Of a stretch of DNA of 33,120 nt, positions 4 to 28,028 are shown piece after piece. Under the pieces are notes generated by a model that was not told where the DNA came from, did not search any database, and was given only the letters and a program-made list of their open reading frames with translations. The stretch is from Acidobacteriaceae bacterium (GTDB lineage: Bacteria > Acidobacteriota > Terriglobia > Terriglobales > Acidobacteriaceae): positions 1 through 33,120 of the forward strand of contig DAIDGW010000270.1 of assembly GCA_027452245.1 (NCBI GenBank), in the 5' to 3' direction. The stretch's first letter is position 1. Each line of letters starts with the position of its first letter. A program made the translations under genes and the position numbers.

Positions 4-342
4 TCAGATTTTCAGGCGTTGTTCGTTCTTTACTTGGGCTCGGAGTACATCGCTGATTAACGAGCAGGCTTGCTTCACTTCTTTGATCGCAAGGAAACAA
101 TGAACCTGTTTGCCCTCACGTCGAGTGCCCACAACTCCGGCTGCCTTCAAAACGGCCAAGTGTTGCGAGAGGTTGGCTAAAGAGATCCCAAGTCGTTCGC
201 GTATTTCCGATACAGGGCAGTCGCCCTTGGAAACCATGTCGAGAATCTTGAGACGAACCGGATTGGCAAATGCCTTACAAATTCCTGCCCGTCTCTCATA
301 CAGTTCTTCTTCTAGTTGCGCCTTAGCTGGTTGCCGTTTCAT
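4..342 (-). CDS. ArsR/SmtB-family winged-helix transcriptional repressor
   Basis: This is a 112-residue protein with the compact ArsR winged-helix fold. The early helix has the family motif AFANPVRLKIL (residues 24-34), and the recognition helix region reads SLANLSQHLAVLKAAG (54-69), followed by a short wing and a C-terminal dimer helix. ArsR proteins usually repress their own operon and release DNA on metal binding or thiol oxidation. Cysteines are at 22, 42, 82 and 93. The classical arsenic ELCVC motif is absent, so thiol or redox sensing is as likely as metal sensing; that is inference. A Shine-Dalgarno run AGGGGGAT precedes the ATG at 342. It is the last gene of the minus-strand cytochrome operon, 27 bp after the cytochrome b gene, which suggests autoregulation of that operon. 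Confidence 0.9.
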   Translation of the reverse strand: MKRQPAKAQLEEELYERRAGICKAFANPVRLKILDMVSKGDCPVSEIRERLGISLANLSQHLAVLKAAGVVGTRREGKQVHCFLAIKEVKQACSLISDVLRAQVKNEQRLKI

Positions 343-369
343 TTCGAGATCCCCCTCGGCACAGACCTC

Positions 370-993
370 TCATGGTTCCTCCTGAGTATGATAGCCCGTG
401 ATCATCGCCCGAAGAAGGCTGCCGAGTGTTGGTCCCGTCGTCGCCAGATAGAGATGGCCGACCAGGAAGGCTAAGAAGAGGTAGCTTCCAAGTGTGTGCA
501 GCGGGGCCAGGACCCACAAGCCCCCGAGGCGGGCGATCAGTATCGGCCAGAGGTCTGCTCCCCAAAGCAGAACTCCCGTCACGATCTGGAACGGCAGCAG
601 AACATTCAGCAGCAGCAGGTACGTGATCTTCTGCAGGGAATTCAACTTGCGCCTCGGGTCTGTCTCTAAAGGATGTTTCTCCCCCTGAAAAATTCCATAG
701 AAATAGAAATGCGCCTGACGAATGGCTGCGTCCGTGAAATCGTCCATACGGGGCAGGAAGTGATGGTACTTTTCGGCGGTTGCGTGATAGAAAATGCCTA
801 GAAAAGCATTCACCACCAAAGCAACGCCAATCCACGTATGCCATCGCACCGCATTGGCCATCGAACCCAGAACGCCAAAACGATCCGGATAGTGAATGGC
901 AAAACCGGTAAGGATCAGGAACCCAATTCCCGCCGCTTGTAACCAATGCCAGATCCGTTCGTGGAGCGAGTACAAAACTGGAGTCGAGGTCAC
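370..993 (-). CDS. Cytochrome b561/formate-dehydrogenase-gamma-like membrane subunit
   Basis: A 207-residue integral membrane protein with four hydrophobic segments (roughly 17-36, 52-70, 123-144, 162-186). Histidines in or beside them at 11, 16, 52, 70, 166 and 180 suit a di-heme b-type quinol-oxidising subunit of the Ni/Fe-hydrogenase/formate dehydrogenase/thiosulfate reductase cytochrome b type. The reading frame stays open upstream, but GTG at 993-991 is preferred as start: it follows GGAGGAAATC and overlaps the TGA of the upstream octaheme gene (992-990) as GTGA, a classic translational-coupling arrangement. The protein therefore probably assembles stoichiometrically with the octaheme cytochrome and passes quinol electrons to it. 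The b+c gene pairing resembles in layout the CbcBA-type quinol oxidases of Geobacter. That comparison is from memory of gene order, not alignment. Confidence 0.85.
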   Translation of the reverse strand: MTSTPVLYSLHERIWHWLQAAGIGFLILTGFAIHYPDRFGVLGSMANAVRWHTWIGVALVVNAFLGIFYHATAEKYHHFLPRMDDFTDAAIRQAHFYFYGIFQGEKHPLETDPRRKLNSLQKITYLLLLNVLLPFQIVTGVLLWGADLWPILIARLGGLWVLAPLHTLGSYLFLAFLVGHLYLATTGPTLGSLLRAMITGYHTQEEP

Positions 994-3101
994 GATTTCC
1001 TCCGCAATAAACGAAGACTGCCGTGTATCAGGCTGAACACGAAAGCACCGGCGACGCACAACCACCCCAGCCCTTCGATCCACGGCACCCTGCTATAGCC
1101 GCTCACATAAAAAGATTGCAGCAGAACTCGGTTGTCGAAGGTTGGTTCCTTAGTCCGGAAATCAACCACCTTCAAGTTCTTACCGCGATACACGACCGGC
1201 ACCCCGCTCGGCAGAAAGGAGTCCAGAACCACCGGCCGCGCCAATATGCTCTTTTTACTGTGACATGCCGCACAATCCCGCAACGCCTGTTGTTTACCCA
1301 CGATGCCATGCGTTGTGGCCCAGGCCACGACCTCGATTCGCAACTCGGGATCGCTAACCCCTGCATAGGTCTGCAAAAGCTGTTTCACTAATGCGATCTT
1401 TTCGGGAGTGTCATAGACCGCTTGTGGCAGATCGATAATGCCGTCCTTGTCGGCGAAGGTTTTCAGAATCTCCGGACGGTACGGCCACTCGCCTTCCTTG
1501 GGCAGAGCAGTGAAGAACGCCTGCTGCATTTGCCACGTGAATACCGGCCGCCCCTTGGTCTTATCAAACCAGTAAACGCCGGTGATCAGGTTCGTCGGAC
1601 GAATCTGCAGATTCTGATGTTTGTCCGCCGTCGGAATGTAGGCGGGACGATAACCGGAAATCTCCGATTCAGGATCGACGATGGATCCATCAATCCCCCG
1701 GTACGTGATCCGGCTTCCGCCCGTATCCATCAGAAATCCCCAATCATCACTGCGATACGCCCAGAAGTGAACTGCGGGAAGATGGCAGACCTGGCAGGCG
1801 AGTGTGCGCAGATGCGTCGCCTTATACGGGAGAAAAGCGTGTACCTTCTCCGCATCGTGGCAATCGCCGCACGCCCGCATCGTGTTGATGCGCGTCAGAT
1901 TCACCGTTTCCGGGGGAATATTGCCGCGGGCGAAATTATGATCCGGATGCCTCAGGTACTCCGCTAGGTCGATTCCGGCCGGTTTGTAGCGAAGATTTTT
2001 CTTCGTGTCTTCCTGGATCATTCGCCCGGGATTATTCGGCGAGAAGTGGCAATCAATGCATACCATTCCCGCCGCCGCATGCACGTCCCACGGGAAGTTC
2101 ATCTTTTCTTTTCCCACGATATTCGGCGACACGGTGTCGCTGATCTTGGCGCCGTTGTAGACCCAACCGCATTTTTCCGTGCCCCGCATGATATCTGCGT
2201 GTTGGATCGGCTGAATTGTGGTTGCGTTTCGGGCCGTGAAACCGTGGCATTGGCTACAGTTCTCGAGCGTAGCGTCGGAGAGATCGATTGCGTCCTGCTT
2301 CACGCTTCCGTCCGGGTTGAAAGCTTCGCGATTGTAGGTGAACCCTTCGCTTTCCTGTCGGACCACGATACCGGTTTCGACCAGCGTCGCATTGTCCGCC
2401 CAGCGGAAGTTTCCCGCGGCCATCTCCTTCTTGCGGTCACCTCGGCTAGCCTTGGGAACATGGCACAAAAAGCAGTCCGCTTCGGCGATACCACTTTTCT
2501 GCCAGTCCCACGGCACCACCTGCCCTTTTTCTCGGTCGCGAATCGTGTAGCTCGGGTCATACGGCCCGTCGGGCTTGGCATCAGCCGTAAGAAATCGCTT
2601 TCCGTGCAGGTCGTACTCCGAGATTCCTCCGCCGGTATGGCACCCGCCACACTTGGTCAGCCACTCCGGTTGGCTCATATCAGCATCCGACGGCTCTTCT
2701 ATCCCCACCGCCGTCAGTTGCCGGTTGGGAATGATCGAAAACTTCCCGAACATGCCCGGCGATGTATTGAAGGCTGGAGCGCCATGCGACGTCAGCAGCG
2801 CCCGGTCCATTTCATTCTTGCCTTGCTGAAAATGGAAGCTGTTGGCGATGTAGTCGTAGTCGTGACAATCCCCGCCGCAGCTCTGGCGTGTGCTGATGGG
2901 CTTCCCGCTCCTCAGCACGTTCTCTCCCGTTTCGTCTTTCAGCACAATGCGCGGATGTACCAACTTCTGTTGCTCACCCCTGGTCGGATTGGACGATGCC
3001 GGCCCAGGCTGGGATGGTTGCGCCCAAGCGGGTGCGCTCAATAATGCAACCCCGATCACAAAAGAAAGCTGCCTGTCTCTCGATCCACGATGACGACGCA
3101 T
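990..3101 (-). CDS. Octaheme c-type cytochrome, periplasmic with C-terminal membrane anchor
   Basis: A 703-residue exported protein. The N-terminus (1-27, ending PAWA) is a Sec signal peptide. Seven canonical heme motifs are visible: CGGCH 151, CFLCH 210, CSQCH 282, CIDCH 348, CGDCH 411, CQVCH 436 and CAACH 610. An additional CX3CH-like site, CGGDCH, lies at 75-80, giving eight potential hemes. A hydrophobic segment at about 672-694 followed by RLLRRKS anchors the C-terminus in the inner membrane, leaving the heme domain in the periplasm. SD AGGAGAGG precedes the ATG. The gene lies 72 bp after the monoheme cytochrome gene and is coupled to the cytochrome b gene, so it probably receives electrons from quinol via that subunit. 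It could be an electron conduit or a terminal reductase of the tetrathionate/nitrite/hydroxylamine reductase kind; the sequence does not decide. Confidence 0.88.
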   Translation of the reverse strand: MRRHRGSRDRQLSFVIGVALLSAPAWAQPSQPGPASSNPTRGEQQKLVHPRIVLKDETGENVLRSGKPISTRQSCGGDCHDYDYIANSFHFQQGKNEMDRALLTSHGAPAFNTSPGMFGKFSIIPNRQLTAVGIEEPSDADMSQPEWLTKCGGCHTGGGISEYDLHGKRFLTADAKPDGPYDPSYTIRDREKGQVVPWDWQKSGIAEADCFLCHVPKASRGDRKKEMAAGNFRWADNATLVETGIVVRQESEGFTYNREAFNPDGSVKQDAIDLSDATLENCSQCHGFTARNATTIQPIQHADIMRGTEKCGWVYNGAKISDTVSPNIVGKEKMNFPWDVHAAAGMVCIDCHFSPNNPGRMIQEDTKKNLRYKPAGIDLAEYLRHPDHNFARGNIPPETVNLTRINTMRACGDCHDAEKVHAFLPYKATHLRTLACQVCHLPAVHFWAYRSDDWGFLMDTGGSRITYRGIDGSIVDPESEISGYRPAYIPTADKHQNLQIRPTNLITGVYWFDKTKGRPVFTWQMQQAFFTALPKEGEWPYRPEILKTFADKDGIIDLPQAVYDTPEKIALVKQLLQTYAGVSDPELRIEVVAWATTHGIVGKQQALRDCAACHSKKSILARPVVLDSFLPSGVPVVYRGKNLKVVDFRTKEPTFDNRVLLQSFYVSGYSRVPWIEGLGWLCVAGAFVFSLIHGSLRLLRRKS

Positions 3102-3173
3102 ATATAAGTGACCTCTCCTGAGTGCCCCGGGCTGCCGGGCGATGGTGCAAAATAACTCGACACCGGAAGAGCC

Positions 3174-3515
3174 TTACTTTCCGCAGGTTTCCGGTTGCGG
3201 AGAATCAGCAGCATGATTAATCAGGAATGTCGACGCATCGAGCAACTGATCAGGAGGCAAATACTTGCTCAATTGTTCTTTGCCGTGATTATGAGTTCCA
3301 GCGGCAAAATAGGCCCGCCACTGCGCCATGGTTTTATTTAAGGGAGTCAGTTCTCCTCCTACAGCGCCTTTCGTGTGGCACTGCCGGCAGGTGTCTTTGA
3401 AAAAGTGGCGTCCTTTGGTCTCACTTCCTTTGGGCGCAGCCAGCACTCCGAAAAATACTCCCGCCAGCGCAACCATAAGCAGTATCAGCAGCGTGAATTT
3501 GATGAAGCGCAGCAT
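3174..3515 (-). CDS. Small membrane-anchored monoheme cytochrome c
   Basis: A 113-residue protein with an N-terminal hydrophobic helix (about 4-27) that is probably an uncleaved anchor, followed by one heme-binding motif CRQCH at 43-47 and a short helical domain with the pattern GGELTPLNKTMAQW. An ATG six codons upstream is in frame, but the ATG at 3515 is chosen because GGAGGAG lies five bases before it. No methionine ligand is obvious except M63. It is the first gene of the minus-strand cytochrome operon and probably carries single electrons between the octaheme cytochrome and another periplasmic partner. A second cysteine near the C-terminus (C111) lies outside any heme motif. Confidence 0.85.
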   Translation of the reverse strand: MLRFIKFTLLILLMVALAGVFFGVLAAPKGSETKGRHFFKDTCRQCHTKGAVGGELTPLNKTMAQWRAYFAAGTHNHGKEQLSKYLPPDQLLDASTFLINHAADSPQPETCGK

Positions 3516-3820
3516 GAAAACTCCTCCAGGCAATTCGATATTTTCGAAAGCTGCTCAACCATAGCTGTAAGCTTTATCCCAAATCTGTGATGGAGGACAC
3601 ATTCAGCCCGCAAAATGTCGACACTTAGAGTCGCGTTCTTAAGTGCTTGCGAAATTGCGAAACTGTGATGAAGGACACTGACGTGTCCTTTTCTTCTCCG
3701 GCAGCATGAAATCGCCATGCTCCGAGAAGGACACCCTACTCACCCTGACCCGCATGGCCCGGCCTCTCGGAACTTCACGCCGAGCATGCCGTGAATTTCA
3801 TAGGAAGGAAGGAATTCATC
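3516..3820. promoter_or_regulatory. Divergent control region between cytochrome operon and porin gene
   Basis: This 305-bp gap separates the minus-strand cytochrome operon from the plus-strand porin gene, so it should hold both promoters. It contains a near-identical direct repeat, CTGTGATG(G/A)AGGACAC at 3585-3600 and 3663-3678, and a third AAGGACAC at 3727-3734. The second copy forms a perfect dyad, AAGGACAC-TGAC-GTGTCCTT (3671-3690). Repeated motifs around a dyad suggest an operator, possibly for the ArsR protein or another regulator. I see no convincing -10/-35 pair. Confidence 0.5.
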
Positions 3821-5716
3821 ATGCGGAAGCTTCTCTTGCCAGCACTGGTGTTTCTGCTCAGCACGGGGCTCTGGGCGCAGACGCCAACGGCTCCAGCCGA
3901 CGATTCGGCTCAACTTCGTCACGAAATTGAGCAGCTCCAGAAAACCGTCAACTCACTCGAACAGCGGCTCAATTCCTCGCAGAACGCAACCTCCAACAGC
4001 GCACCGGGGCACAACGTTCCCAACGCGCCCTCAGCAGCGTCCCAAAATGCAGTGAGTTCCAGTTCGGGAACGCCAGTAACCACTCAGGACACAACTGTCG
4101 CCGACCTGCAGACCAGCGTCCGCGACCTCAACGACCGCATGAGTCAGGTGGAGCGCAAATCTCTTCGCGATCGCTTGCAGTGGGGCGGAGACTACCGCTA
4201 CGAAACCCATCTCATTCGCGGCAACATTCCCAATCACTACGACGGCATGCAGTTGCAGAACCTTATGGTGAATACTATGTGGTTGTTCACTCCGCCGTCG
4301 CAGGGCGGTCTTGGCCTCGCCTTCAATCCCAATATGCTCAGCCAGATGACCCCAACTCAATTCGCCGGATTCGTCAGCGGACAGGTCAGGCAGAACTATG
4401 GCCAGTATCAATACTTCACCAATAATCTCACCTTCCCGGCTTTGAAGCAGTCCGTCGGGCAGTTTTCGCCGCAAATGCAGCAGATGTTGATGAACTATCT
4501 ATCGCAGGTCCCGGGTGTCATGCAGACGGCATACACGGCAAACAGCGATACCTTGATGACCAACCGTCTTCGTTTGCGGTTCGAATCCCAGGTCTCCGAC
4601 AACATCAGCTTCGGCGCTCGCCTCAGCATGTACAAGGTATTTGGCGATTCGACCGGCATCCAGATATTTGATGGGCAGCCCACCTCGCTCGCCATCGACG
4701 GCACCACCGTCGGCGTACCCAGTGGAGACATGGTTCGCGTGGAGCGCGCCTATTTCAGTTGGAACCATATCGGAGGTTCGAATCTCTACCTTTCAATCGG
4801 CCGGCGTCCCTCGACCGATGGCCCCCCGCTCAATTACCGCGATGACGAACCCCGCGGCGGCACTCCCTCGGGCGCGCTCATCGATTTCCAATTCGACGGT
4901 ATCACTGCCGGTTACAACGTCAGTGAAACCATGACCCTGCGTGCCTGCTATGGGATGGGTTATTCCTCCGGCTTCGGCAACGGGAACTTGCTTCAAACCC
5001 CGGCAGACCGCGTGAAGTCCGTCCATTTATTCGGCGGCAACATGGACATCTACAGCACCGACAAGACCTTCATTCAGGCGACGCTCGCCCGCGCTTGGAA
5101 CGTCACCGACGGCTTTGATGGATTGACCGTCCTGCCCAATGATCCTTTGACCGGCGCTCCGGTTACGGCTCCTGTCGTGATGCGGTATGCTCCCTCAGCT
5201 AATCTCGGAGCTATCGATCTCTACGGCATCAACCTGCAGAAGAAGTTGGGAGATTTCGACATGTTTGTCAGCGGGAACTGGTCTTCCACGCGTCCCAATG
5301 GGCTCACCACCCCATTCGGCGGATTGATGAGCGACCCGTTCCAGAGCCCCGTCAATCGCGATGGCCAAATGTATTACCTGGGCCTCCGCTATAGCCTTCC
5401 CAAGGACGACGGCCGGACTAAAATCGGCTTCGAGTTTAACCACGGAAGCGAGTACTGGTTTAACTTTGCCCAGGCTGAGGACGATATCATCGCTCCGAAA
5501 ACCGACACGCGCGGGGATGTCTACGAAAGCTATGTCACGCATCGCGTGCATGATCATTTCCTGATCAAAGGCAGCTTCATCAACTACAACTATCTCTGGT
5601 CGGGTTCGGGTTGGCAGGTCGGCGCTCCCAAGCGCCTGAATTCGAACCCAATCTTGGCATTTCCTACCTATGACACTGCCCGCATGTTTACCTTGGGATT
5701 GATCGCGGAATTCTGA
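3821..5716 (+). CDS. Outer-membrane porin-like beta-barrel protein with N-terminal coiled coil
   Basis: A 631-residue exported protein. Residues 1-19 are a Sec signal peptide (ending LWA). They are followed by a short coiled coil (about 29-52), an Ala/Ser/Asn/Pro-rich linker, a second heptad stretch (about 93-115) and then a long region of alternating aromatic and polar strands starting at about 118 with LQWGGDYRYETH. The protein ends ...GLIAEF; a terminal Phe is the usual outer-membrane barrel signal. The arrangement resembles DUF3373-type putative porins found beside multiheme cytochromes in Geobacter and relatives (family assignment from memory). ATG at 3821 is chosen over an upstream in-frame GTG at 3791 because AAGGAAGGAA precedes it. 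Being divergent from the cytochrome operon, it may be its outer-membrane partner; a strong terminator follows. Confidence 0.82.
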   Translation: MRKLLLPALVFLLSTGLWAQTPTAPADDSAQLRHEIEQLQKTVNSLEQRLNSSQNATSNSAPGHNVPNAPSAASQNAVSSSSGTPVTTQDTTVADLQTSVRDLNDRMSQVERKSLRDRLQWGGDYRYETHLIRGNIPNHYDGMQLQNLMVNTMWLFTPPSQGGLGLAFNPNMLSQMTPTQFAGFVSGQVRQNYGQYQYFTNNLTFPALKQSVGQFSPQMQQMLMNYLSQVPGVMQTAYTANSDTLMTNRLRLRFESQVSDNISFGARLSMYKVFGDSTGIQIFDGQPTSLAIDGTTVGVPSGDMVRVERAYFSWNHIGGSNLYLSIGRRPSTDGPPLNYRDDEPRGGTPSGALIDFQFDGITAGYNVSETMTLRACYGMGYSSGFGNGNLLQTPADRVKSVHLFGGNMDIYSTDKTFIQATLARAWNVTDGFDGLTVLPNDPLTGAPVTAPVVMRYAPSANLGAIDLYGINLQKKLGDFDMFVSGNWSSTRPNGLTTPFGGLMSDPFQSPVNRDGQMYYLGLRYSLPKDDGRTKIGFEFNHGSEYWFNFAQAEDDIIAPKTDTRGDVYESYVTHRVHDHFLIKGSFINYNYLWSGSGWQVGAPKRLNSNPILAFPTYDTARMFTLGLIAEF

Positions 5717-24647: not shown

Positions 24648-25457
24648 TTATTTCTCGCTCAGCGAAGTAGCGCGAAGAAACGGATCAACGGCTGCCAGCA
24701 GTTCGTCTTTCATCAGCGGACCACAGGCCAGCAACCCGCTCAGCAGCGGGTTGCTGCGATTCGCAACCAGATCTTTCTTTTCCAGAGTGCTGACGAACCC
24801 TCCGCCACTCGTGACCAGTGCGGCGCCCGCGACCACGTCCCATTCATTCTTGGGAGTGAGCGTGAATGTCGCGTCTGCCAGCCCGGCCGCGACCAATGCC
24901 AGCTTGTAAGCGACCGAGCCCATGGCTTCGGTTTTGAACGGAGCGCTGGCAAAATCCCTCCACTCGCCGCGCTTCACTTCGCTGCGGCTTGCCAACACCC
25001 TTGCGCCGTTCAGCGACGCCTTCTGACTGCAACCCGCCGGCTTGCCGTTATAAAGCATTCCTGCATCAGCTGCGCCGAGGAAACTTTCCTTTGTCGCCGG
25101 ATTGTAAATGCCTCCGGCTACAGGTTTTCCATTCTCGACGAAACCAATCGACACGCAGAATTCCGGCAGTCCTTCCACGAATTCTCGCGTGCCGTCCAAG
25201 GGATCGACCACCCACACTCGTTCGCAACCGAGACGCGAGAGATCGTCGGCGCTTTCCTCCGAGAGCCATCCTTCGCCCTCGCGCAGCAGATTCTTTCGCA
25301 TCACGCTATCGACTGCGCGGTCTGCTTCTGTAACCGGATCATGTCCAGCCTTGAATTCGGTTTGTACTTTGCCCGGTGTGAAACGGCTGAAAACTTCGCG
25401 GGCTTCATCGAGCGCAGCTTGAATGCGCTCCAAAATGTCGGAATAGGAAGATTTCAT
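24648..25457 (-). CDS. cysQ: 3'(2'),5'-bisphosphate nucleotidase (CysQ-like, inositol monophosphatase fold)
   Basis: A 269-residue phosphatase. The metal-binding motifs of the lithium-sensitive phosphatase superfamily are complete: LSEES (E67, E68), VVDPLDGTREF (84-94) and WDVVAGAALV (near 206). DPLDGTREFV is typical of CysQ, which removes the 3'-phosphate of PAP, the by-product of PAPS use, or recycles PAPS. It follows the TauE-like permease gene by 12 bp in the same direction and the SAT/APS-kinase gene beyond it, so sulfate activation is its likely context. Inositol monophosphatase activity is a less likely alternative. No clear ribosome-binding site precedes the ATG, which may mean coupling to the upstream gene. 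Confidence 0.88.
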   Translation of the reverse strand: MKSSYSDILERIQAALDEAREVFSRFTPGKVQTEFKAGHDPVTEADRAVDSVMRKNLLREGEGWLSEESADDLSRLGCERVWVVDPLDGTREFVEGLPEFCVSIGFVENGKPVAGGIYNPATKESFLGAADAGMLYNGKPAGCSQKASLNGARVLASRSEVKRGEWRDFASAPFKTEAMGSVAYKLALVAAGLADATFTLTPKNEWDVVAGAALVTSGGGFVSTLEKKDLVANRSNPLLSGLLACGPLMKDELLAAVDPFLRATSLSEK

Positions 25458-25469
25458 GGGATTATTTGC

Positions 25470-26246
25470 CTAGAGTACAGGCCACAACATTCTGGCGCCC
25501 GTCAGGAACAGCAGCGTGCAAAGAATGCGCCGCAGCCATAACATCGGGACTTTTGTGGCCAGGTGAGATCCGATCAGGCCCCCGGGAATCGATCCCACCA
25601 GGAGCGACAAGACAAGCCTGGAATCCACGTTTCCCAGATGGAAATGCAGCATCCCCGTCACTCCCGTCAGAATTACGGCATGGACCACGTCCGTGCCTAC
25701 ATTCACCTTGGGTGGATAACTGTAGAACAGCAGCAACAGCATCATGATGATGCTGCCGGAACCCACCGAAGTCATTCCCACCAGGAACCCGGCCAACAGT
25801 CCGATCAGAACCATGCCGGCGATGGACTTCATTGTCGGGGGACGATGAACTACCTTTTCTTCGATGCGCCGTTGAAACAGCAGCATGAGCGGCACAACAA
25901 TCAACAAAATCCCTACCGCGAATTTGATGAAGTCATTCACTCCGCTGCCATAAATCCTGCGGATATGTGTGAGTAGAGCGATTCCCGCCAGTGACCCGGG
26001 AACGCTGCCGACGGCAAGAGCCATGACTACTTTTCGCCGGACCGTCCCTCTATTCAGGTGCAGCAGGCTCGCCGGAACTTTCGTGAAGAAGTTGAACAAA
26101 GCGTCAGACCCTACCGCCACAATGGCGGGAATGCCAAGGCCGTAAATCAACACGGGCAGCAACAGCACTCCACCGCCCACGCCGGTCATGCCAATCAGAA
26201 TCCCGACGATGAATCCAACGATACCCTTCAGTGCCAATAGTTCCAT
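25470..26246 (-). CDS. TauE/SafE-family membrane permease
   Basis: A 258-residue inner-membrane protein with about seven or eight hydrophobic segments. The two family repeats are marked by GIVGFIVGILIGMTGVGGG near the N-terminus and GLLAGFLVGMTSVGSGSI in the middle, each with the glycine-rich turn of TauE/SafE transporters. The family exports or imports sulfite, sulfoacetate, taurine-derived anions and possibly sulfate. Being placed between the sulfate adenylyltransferase and PAP phosphatase genes (gaps 39 and 12 bp) argues for sulfate or sulfite as the substrate, which is inference from context. The ribosome-binding site is a modest GGCAGG. Confidence 0.88.
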   Translation of the reverse strand: MELLALKGIVGFIVGILIGMTGVGGGVLLLPVLIYGLGIPAIVAVGSDALFNFFTKVPASLLHLNRGTVRRKVVMALAVGSVPGSLAGIALLTHIRRIYGSGVNDFIKFAVGILLIVVPLMLLFQRRIEEKVVHRPPTMKSIAGMVLIGLLAGFLVGMTSVGSGSIIMMLLLLFYSYPPKVNVGTDVVHAVILTGVTGMLHFHLGNVDSRLVLSLLVGSIPGGLIGSHLATKVPMLWLRRILCTLLFLTGARMLWPVL

Positions 26247-26285
26247 CGCGAACCTGCCACGTTTGCTCTTGTTGTTGCCTGGCTG

Positions 26286-28028
26286 CTAGGCTCTGGCTCC
26301 GTTGACGCCGATGAAGCCTTCGCGCTCCAGGTGCAGGATGATTTCCTGCGCCGCCTCTTCCGGAGACAGTTCCCCAGTGTTGATCGTCACCTCAGCATCG
26401 GCTGGCGCCTCGTACGGATCCGAAATCCCCGTGAACTCCTTCAGGATCCCGGCCCGTGCCTTGGCATACAGTCCCTTGCGGTCGCGTTGCTCGCAGACTT
26501 CCACCGGCGTTGCGACATGCACCAGGATGAATCCGCCGAAGGGTTCGATCAGCTGACGAACGTGTTTTCGTGTCGCGTCGTACGGAGCAATCGGTGCGCA
26601 AATCGCGATTCCACCGTTCTTCGTGATCTCCGATGCAACGTAGCCGATGCGGCGAATGTTGATGTCGCGATGCTCTTTCGAGAAGCCCAGCTCCGATGAA
26701 AGATGCTTGCGCACCAGATCGCCGTCCAGCAAAGTCACCGGACGTCCTCCGACTTCCAGGAACTTCGTCAGCAGCGCATTCGCGATCGTGGACTTGCCTG
26801 ATCCCGAAAGCCCGGTGAAGAAAACCGTCACTCCCTGCTGCGACCGGGGCGGAAAACTCCGGCGCAGTTCGTGCACCACCTCCGGATACGTGAACCATCC
26901 GGGAATGTCACGCCCTTCGTTCAGGCGTTGCCGTAGTTCCGTTCCAGAGATGTTCAGCACGCGATCGCCGTTCTTTACTTCGTCGTCTGGAACGTAGCGG
27001 TCCTGCGCCTCGAGGTAGACCATCATGTTGAAAGGCACCATGGTGACCCCAATATCCGCCTCGTTCTTCTTGAACAGCTCTTGCGCTTCGTACGGTCCGT
27101 AGAAGGGCTTGCCGTCCGTGTCTTTTCCCGGACCCGCATGATCGCGGCCGACAATAAAGTGCGTGCATCCGTAGTTCTTGCGGATTAGCGCATGCCAGAT
27201 TGCCTCCCGCGGCCCCCCCATGCGCATGGCCAACGGCAACAATGACAGCTTCTGCGTGCCCTGCGGATATTTCGAACCCAGCAACTGATAGCAGCGGACG
27301 CGCGTGTAATAGTCCACGTCTCCGGGTTTCGTCATGCCCACCACCGGCTGGATCAGCAGATTCGCTTCCACCTGCTTGGCGGCGCGGAACGTCAGTTCCA
27401 CGTGTGCCCGATGCATTGGGTTCCGCGTCTGGAACGCCACCACACGACGCCATCCTAAGCGCGCAAATTCTGCCCGCAACTCGGCCGGCGTCAACCGCAG
27501 CGTGCGAAAGTCATAATGCGACGGAAGCTGCAGGCCTTCGACCCGTCCGCCGATGTAAACCGGATTCGCCTTGTTCATGGTGTAATCGGCGCCCGGATGA
27601 GCAGAACTGGTGCTGTTGAAAACTGCCTTGGCCTCCGCTTTGCGATCCGGTTGCCAGATCTCTTCTACATGCAACACCGCTAGCATCACGCCTTCGGGAT
27701 CGCGCAATGCCACCTTGCTGCCAACCTTCAGCTTCTTGGAAAATTCCTCCGTCACATCGAGCGTGATCGGCATGGGCCAAAGCAGCCCACTCGCCAGGCG
27801 CATGTTTTGGCACACACCCTCGTAATCGGCACGCGTCATAAAACCGCGCAGCGGAGAAAATCCTCCGTTCAGCAATAGCTCCAGGTCACACAACTGGCGC
27901 GCGGTCATATCCCACGAAGGCCATTCTTTGGAGTGAGCCTTCAGTTCAGCTGCGCGTTCTGGTTGGACGATGAGTTCGGTCAGTTCTCCGCCGTGGGGTG
28001 AAATCAAATGGCTGGTTGAAGCAGTCAA
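26286..28028 (-). CDS. Bifunctional sulfate adenylyltransferase/adenylylsulfate kinase
   Basis: A 580-residue cytoplasmic enzyme that makes APS from sulfate and ATP and then PAPS. Residues 1-395 are the ATP sulfurylase with QTRNPMHRAH (200-209), the nucleotide loop GRDHAGPG (294-301) and FNMMVYLEA. Residues 398-580 are APS kinase with the P-loop GLSGSGKST (406-414), LLDGDLVRKHL and the substrate region GFSKEHRDINIRR. It is a single-chain enzyme rather than the CysDN type. The start is TTG at 28028: AAAGGA and AGGAGG lie just upstream and no ATG gives a full N-terminus. It heads the operon with the TauE-like and CysQ genes. No PAPS or sulfite reductase is in the window. Confidence 0.94.
   Translation of the reverse strand: MTASTSHLISPHGGELTELIVQPERAAELKAHSKEWPSWDMTARQLCDLELLLNGGFSPLRGFMTRADYEGVCQNMRLASGLLWPMPITLDVTEEFSKKLKVGSKVALRDPEGVMLAVLHVEEIWQPDRKAEAKAVFNSTSSAHPGADYTMNKANPVYIGGRVEGLQLPSHYDFRTLRLTPAELRAEFARLGWRRVVAFQTRNPMHRAHVELTFRAAKQVEANLLIQPVVGMTKPGDVDYYTRVRCYQLLGSKYPQGTQKLSLLPLAMRMGGPREAIWHALIRKNYGCTHFIVGRDHAGPGKDTDGKPFYGPYEAQELFKKNEADIGVTMVPFNMMVYLEAQDRYVPDDEVKNGDRVLNISGTELRQRLNEGRDIPGWFTYPEVVHELRRSFPPRSQQGVTVFFTGLSGSGKSTIANALLTKFLEVGGRPVTLLDGDLVRKHLSSELGFSKEHRDINIRRIGYVASEITKNGGIAICAPIAPYDATRKHVRQLIEPFGGFILVHVATPVEVCEQRDRKGLYAKARAGILKEFTGISDPYEAPADAEVTINTGELSPEEAAQEIILHLEREGFIGVNGARA

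Follow-up and report, generated by a model that had tools for sequence, protein, structure and literature searches.

We describe a respiratory gene set of an Acidobacteriaceae bacterium, carried by a stretch of 33,120 nucleotides (contig DAIDGW010000270.1 of assembly GCA_027452245.1, hereafter the window) that is one complete contig of a draft genome. Genes for a monoheme cytochrome c, an octaheme cytochrome c, a cytochrome b561-type subunit and an ArsR-family repressor form a run on the minus strand, and the gene of a DUF3373 outer-membrane porin diverges from it. This locus is a variant of respiration related to the octaheme tetrathionate reductase (OTR), within a modular pattern that is undescribed in the literature searched: in relatives, the module of porin and monoheme c goes together with OTR or with PhsA/PsrA-like reductases, and here the octaheme and b561 replace them. 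The gene set is rare and probably borrowed. We read it as a complete, probably lateral cassette for anaerobic respiration in which the octaheme would reduce a small periplasmic substrate, likeliest an inorganic sulfur species, and we give this reading as a whole an even chance.

The kinship of the octaheme with OTR was recognized by profile comparison. Aligned with OTR profiles, it reached an hhalign probability of 99.9 (E 5.1e-31) over 330 columns spanning hemes 2-8, whereas a decaheme control of two sequences gave a probability of 95 (E 3.7e-8) over 73 columns. Judging from this control, heme motifs alone raise the background highly, yet not to the level of the octaheme and OTR. Across 38 aligned proteins (10 of the window type, 6 distant relatives and 22 OTRs), the eight hemes in OTR order and four further histidines were invariant in 38/38 sequences; the protein starts were set by simple rules for some members and are possibly too long (L039, L068). 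The octaheme also shares with OTR the DVH and CHIP-type motifs. With this alignment, which already included OTRs, AlphaFold gave a model with pLDDT 67.3 and pTM 0.70; an earlier run with 16 sequences (pLDDT 49.6) was set aside. Searched with Foldseek, the model matched a single structure below E 0.001, the OTR of Shewanella oneidensis (PDB 1SP3, E 7.3e-4). A sequence search of the PDB with the octaheme retrieved nothing, and its profile gave weak matches only, the best one (E 0.042) to a myosin light chain; the OTR alignment retrieved 1SP3 at E 5.5e-127. Because all eight hemes align, with this hhalign E value, and because 1SP3 is the lone significant Foldseek match of a weak and poorly superposing model, the octaheme is, on sequence and model grounds, a divergent relative of OTR. 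It differs from OTR by its length (703 residues against about 470), and by the addition of a C-terminal anchor and a b561 partner.

The first-pass annotation had counted eight c-type heme motifs in this protein. This holds if CGGDCH (CX3CH, about 2864-2881) is counted as the first one; CXXCH motifs alone number seven. Because relatives have CX2CH, CX3CH (window, L036, L048) or CX4CH (5/6 distant relatives) at this position, a variation noted for the window, L012 and L043-L046, the CX3CH is very probably a heme site. The idea that it is an oddity of this octaheme was rejected, as ImcH has been described with a CX3CH too (PMC6295460). The proposed membrane anchor agrees with a hydrophobic segment at residues 674-699 and with a helix at 673-699 in the predicted model.

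The b561 gene directly follows the octaheme gene in 11/11 loci covering that stretch (window, L033, L035, L036, L037-L040, L041, L047, L048), and in the distant L043 both are fused as one protein. In the window, the TGA of the octaheme and the GTG of b561 share 4 nucleotides (GTGA) behind a GGAGG (junction GGAGGAAATCGTGA), and relatives show ATGA, or TAGGAGG then ATG, at the same junction (read by eye in L035). The translational coupling of the two genes proposed earlier is thus borne out. Gaps along the minus-strand run are 72, -4 and 27 nucleotides, and all five genes of the predicted operon and facing barrel were confirmed. Beside the octaheme we also observed, just before its gene, a gene for an AztC-like zinc-binding protein in L033 (1234-2154), L036 (10910-11836) and L048 (10909-11835). 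In L040 (7892-12881) the octaheme and b561 come after NiFe-hydrogenase-like genes, as recognized by reading start sequences, and in L049 (3321-5488) a distant octaheme homologue in two frames (128 and 594 residues) comes after an alginate-export-type barrel gene.

The porin led to the principal result, which concerns DNA outside the window. DUF3373 exceeded its cut-off in 70/396 Acidobacteriota genomes (73 at E 1e-3), and all 70 loci were examined; as 24/70 came from one genus, counts were also made per genus. A monoheme c was found within 1 kb of DUF3373 in 63/70 loci, 62 times upstream on the same strand and divergently in the window. Among the seven misses, the porin lies at a contig edge in L096, L103 and L106, there is no match in L063, L064 and L109, and the monoheme c is 4.9 kb away in L111. 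In 69/70 loci there is a reductase no more than 3 kb away (PsrA-like 37, including L036 and L048; OTR 28; PsrA and OTR together 2; octaheme 2, in the window and L047), the remaining one, L110, having its porin at a contig edge. By genus, the figures are 32/36 for the monoheme c and 36/36 for the reductase. The reductase queries for this tally were drawn from the surveyed loci themselves. In an independent search with the OTR model, 30/70 OTR matches listed lay within 3 kb of a DUF3373 match (counted by eye), and 7/30 of the DUF3373-linked ones, among the matches listed, exceeded the OTR cut-off. The OTR family model TIGR04315 matched six OTR examples (E 1.4e-82 to 1.8e-92), and for three PsrA-like examples the best match was the thiosulfate reductase PhsA (PRK15488), none of these nine being over its curated cut-off. 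OTR and the PhsA/PsrA-like relatives are known as reductases. The PhsABC/PsrABC-type neighbours are molybdenum enzymes, unlike the heme enzyme of the window, and the best PhsA/PsrA-like match in the window's own genome (29% identity) lies elsewhere in that genome. A close arrangement was seen in five OTR loci with b561 (L073, L098, L099, L101, L116), where monoheme c and DUF3373 are joined by a C-terminally anchored octaheme and then b561, as in the window. They differ from it by a shorter, OTR-type octaheme and by having all genes on one strand. Also, in L055 (2049-6562) and L070 (2896-7376) an OTR and DUF3373 stand beside decaheme MtrA/DmsE-like and MtrB-like GSU2204-family genes.

Thus, the proposal that the genes form a respiratory locus was supported, with the octaheme and b561 strictly paired and the monoheme c and porin a conserved pair; the neighbourhood survey did not find the genes to be rarely together (11/11 and 63/70). 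No description of the DUF3373 rule was found in the literature searched, where DUF3373 figures in one table of trait predictors and one table of outer-membrane pore families. For a family of unknown function, the near-fixed order with a monoheme c and a terminal reductase gives a testable role, and DUF3373 is a possible marker for sulfur-compound respiration in Acidobacteriota. A broader idea, which we regard as somewhat doubtful, is that DUF3373 and the monoheme c are an outer-membrane and periplasmic module of Acidobacteriota dedicated to the respiration of dissolved sulfur species and common to three unlike reductase classes, the window octaheme, which is coupled to b561, anchored in the membrane and devoid of the OTR lysine motif, being a third class with its own chemistry.

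A porin tree with 67 rows served to follow the exchange of reductases (the short or fragmentary porins of L052, L066, L096 and L100 were omitted and L035 was added). On these sequences reductase types are clustered yet often changed, because the label changes 15 times, against a least possible number of 4 and a shuffled mean of 25.9. The three octaheme-linked porins fall on three branches. The window porin is sister (100/100) to the PsrA-type porin of L051, which comes from the same family, and next to the OTR-type L056 and L057.

We hypothesize that cytochrome b561, as its family suggests, oxidizes menaquinol at the inner membrane and that electrons would pass to the adjacent anchored octaheme, which would in turn reduce a dissolved periplasmic substrate, likeliest an inorganic sulfur compound, for example tetrathionate, thiosulfate or polysulfide. 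The DUF3373 barrel could be the outer-membrane passage for substrate or product, the monoheme c may serve as a small periplasmic carrier of the same module, and ArsR would repress the run until the substrate or product is present. Of the two functions suggested by the first-pass annotation, extracellular electron transfer and a periplasmic reductase, our data favour the second over an extracellular conduit: a small substrate would be reduced in the periplasm with electrons from quinol, and it is probably a sulfur species, with nitrogen compounds also considered. The reasons are that the octaheme is an OTR relative and that the other enzymes beside DUF3373 and the monoheme c are OTR or PhsA/PsrA-like. 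The preference for sulfur comes from these usual enzymes beside DUF3373 and from a study in which, with tetrathionate, one acidobacterial otr showed a 36-fold increase at day 8, the change at day 1 being not significant (PMC8528874). The word porin is absent from the main text of that study.

Several observations weigh against the periplasmic sulfur reading. TIGR04315 gives the octaheme 33.8 bits for a cut-off of 375, over residues 339-444 only, with other multiheme models close behind (TIGR04314 25.0, ExtN 22.7, ExtO 22.6), and a TIGR04315 search of the window's genome at E 1e-20 gave no match. The mediocre predicted model superposes badly on 1SP3 (TM-score 0.20/0.29, root-mean-square deviation 13.8). 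A K(R/H)G motif after heme 4 is present in 22/22 OTRs and 6/6 distant relatives and in 0/10 window-type proteins, in a region that aligns ambiguously and has a lysine, K310, close by. In the 38-row alignment the OTR lysine stands against Glu/Leu, the neighbouring RG against Met/Asn and WxxxG against Tyr/Trp, and the OTR + b561 loci L098, L099 and L101 (three examined) keep KHG, unlike the window octaheme. This lysine is presumably residue 153 of 1SP3 (numbered by hand on the profile match), which we take to be a ligand of the catalytic heme. Heme II of OTR has been called catalytic (PMC4484225). The octaheme adjoins the monoheme c and porin in three loci only (window, L035, L047). In L036 and L048 a PhsA/PsrA-like operon separates the octaheme from the monoheme c and porin, at a distance of about 5 kb or more. 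For L037-L040, the DNA examined has the octaheme and b561 but neither of the other two genes. L033 has its octaheme on a 5.1-kb contig, and the porin of the same genome neighbours a PsrA-like gene on a different contig (L061). Finally, nitrite and hydroxylamine are likewise reduced by OTR in vitro (PMC4484225), and we infer the substrate of the octaheme from its neighbours only.

CbcBA of Geobacter sulfurreducens, a presumed quinol oxidase, consists of a multiheme cytochrome c with seven heme motifs and a C-terminal anchor, and of a b-type subunit. An anchored multiheme c and a b-type subunit in one operon are found in the window as well, and the likeness is one of layout; the window octaheme has eight motifs and occurs with the DUF3373 module. 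The octaheme and b561 could nevertheless act as a CbcBA-like quinol oxidase that relays electrons through the monoheme c and the barrel to outside acceptors, and such extracellular electron transfer, which we hold to be unlikely, is favoured by the loss of K(R/H)G, which would fit a relay protein, and by the layout shared with bc-type quinol oxidases, which have been described as good markers of this process (PMC12977616). Against it, the barrel has no multiheme partner in the locus, only a monoheme c, MtrA/MtrB-like genes occur near DUF3373 in 2/70 loci only (L055, L070), and DUF3373 usually neighbours OTR or PhsA/PsrA-like genes. The comparison with porin-cytochrome systems made at first was not supported, and such "porin plus multiheme cytochrome" loci should not be annotated as extracellular conduits without further evidence.

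The in vitro activities of OTR mentioned above would fit an octaheme acting on nitrogen compounds, as a nitrite or hydroxylamine reductase, which seems quite unlikely given that the commonest neighbours of DUF3373 and the monoheme c are PhsA/PsrA-like and that the examples inspected match thiosulfate reductase best. We consider it very unlikely that ArsR marks a metalloid or metal reductase for arsenic, selenium or tellurium: ArsR-family proteins respond to many signals, no arsenic gene was recognized among the window genes scanned, and the ExtN and ExtO scores are far under their cut-offs of 200, even if these weak matches, the ArsR in the run, the AztC-like genes for zinc binding that L033, L036 and L048 carry next to the octaheme, and the distant octahemes adjoining ArsR (L012) or an LMWPc/ArsC-like gene (L044) point that way. 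The least likely of these alternatives is the reverse reaction, in which a sulfur compound is oxidized and electrons enter the quinone pool through b561; b-type partners may work in either direction and, for syntrophic sulfate reducers, a reversed CbcBA has been predicted (PMC10553843), but the OTR and PhsA/PsrA-like relatives are, by family names, reductases. Under the periplasmic reductase reading, the window octaheme is quinol-coupled and combines traits of OTR with those of CbcBA-type quinol oxidases. Since its motif after heme 4 is altered, comparing it with OTR-like enzymes could test what these actually reduce.

Searches of 36/36 same-genus genomes gave neither a true octaheme homologue (the one weak match, in G020, spans 112 residues) nor DUF3373. 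Octaheme matches at E 1e-3 or better occurred in 26/396 Acidobacteriota genomes; nine, including the window's own, were strong and long, and one (G195) was a 57% fragment. When one genome per species was scanned, four loci emerged: L035 was new, and the other three were on contigs equal in length to contigs found before. Close relatives of the octaheme are 64-70% identical and a second group (L037-L040) 34-36%. Searches found no octaheme or porin relatives in plasmids and no octaheme relatives in viral contigs. Because the octaheme and DUF3373 are absent in the genus and present in distant families, these comparisons suggest a lateral gain. GC content shows no step, at 0.52-0.59 across all 2-kb steps of the window. 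Bin contamination is unlikely, since 14,000-33,120 matches 27/27 same-genus genomes searched, GC is even and both ends overlap contigs of the bin; a point in its favour is a phosphorylase at 10.4-13.0 kb whose best identity within the genus is 49%.

ArsR together with the porin had first been regarded as an unfamiliar combination, but the window is not alone in having it. In L051, L052 and L056, orthologous ArsR genes (50, 53 and 54% identical) lie downstream, ending the cassettes, and they accompany both PsrA-like and OTR cassettes. Other ArsR-family genes near DUF3373 loci are 24-30% identical and are not orthologues. The model NF040642 of BigR, a repressor that senses sulfur, gave the window ArsR 54.9 bits, under its cut-off of 155. 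Between the divergent genes there is a perfect palindrome, AAGGACAC-TGAC-GTGTCCTT, at 3671-3690, plus more AGGACAC copies. As an ArsR operator it was rejected: it was not seen upstream of L051, L052 and L056, and 54/2000 single-base shuffles also gave a perfect 8-bp inverted repeat. The features of the locus are collected in Table 1.

Table 1. Features of the cassette, with positions in the window (ORF, open reading frame).
Feature	Position	Strand	Evidence
ArsR/SmtB-family repressor, last in run	4..342	-	NF033788 79.2 bits, cut-off 55
Cytochrome b561-type membrane subunit	370..993, likely start GTG 993-991	-	PF01292 E 7e-26; ORF 370-1083 (-), likely GTG start inside it
Octaheme cytochrome c, 703 aa, OTR relative, C-terminal membrane anchor (predicted)	990..3101	-	Eight heme motifs, hhalign, predicted helix
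Monoheme cytochrome c, C-terminal motif HAADSPQPETCG	3174..3515, likely ATG at 3515	-	One CXXCH; Pfam matches under curated cut-offs; ORF 3174-3533 (-)
Divergent intergenic region with palindrome, candidate operator only	3534..3820		Palindrome at 3671-3690
DUF3373 outer-membrane barrel	3821..5716, likely ATG at 3821	+	PF11853 331.7 bits, cut-off 26.1, E 9e-99; ORF 3791-5716 (+)

The termini of the contig (1-141 and 32980-33120) recur without a mismatch, over 141 bp, as ends of two other contigs of this assembly, C109 and C158, a pattern that assembly overlaps would give. Beyond the overlap, C109 carries DNA glycosylase-like and acyl-CoA catabolism-like genes (named by reading translations), not respiratory ones. 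Because C109 carries catabolic genes past ArsR, nothing of the cassette seems to be missing, provided that the overlap identifies the real adjacent contig. Elsewhere in the window, at 24648-28028, we observed a sulfate-assimilation-like cluster with an inositol-phosphatase family gene, a TauE-type exporter and an ATP sulfurylase/APS (adenylyl sulfate) kinase.

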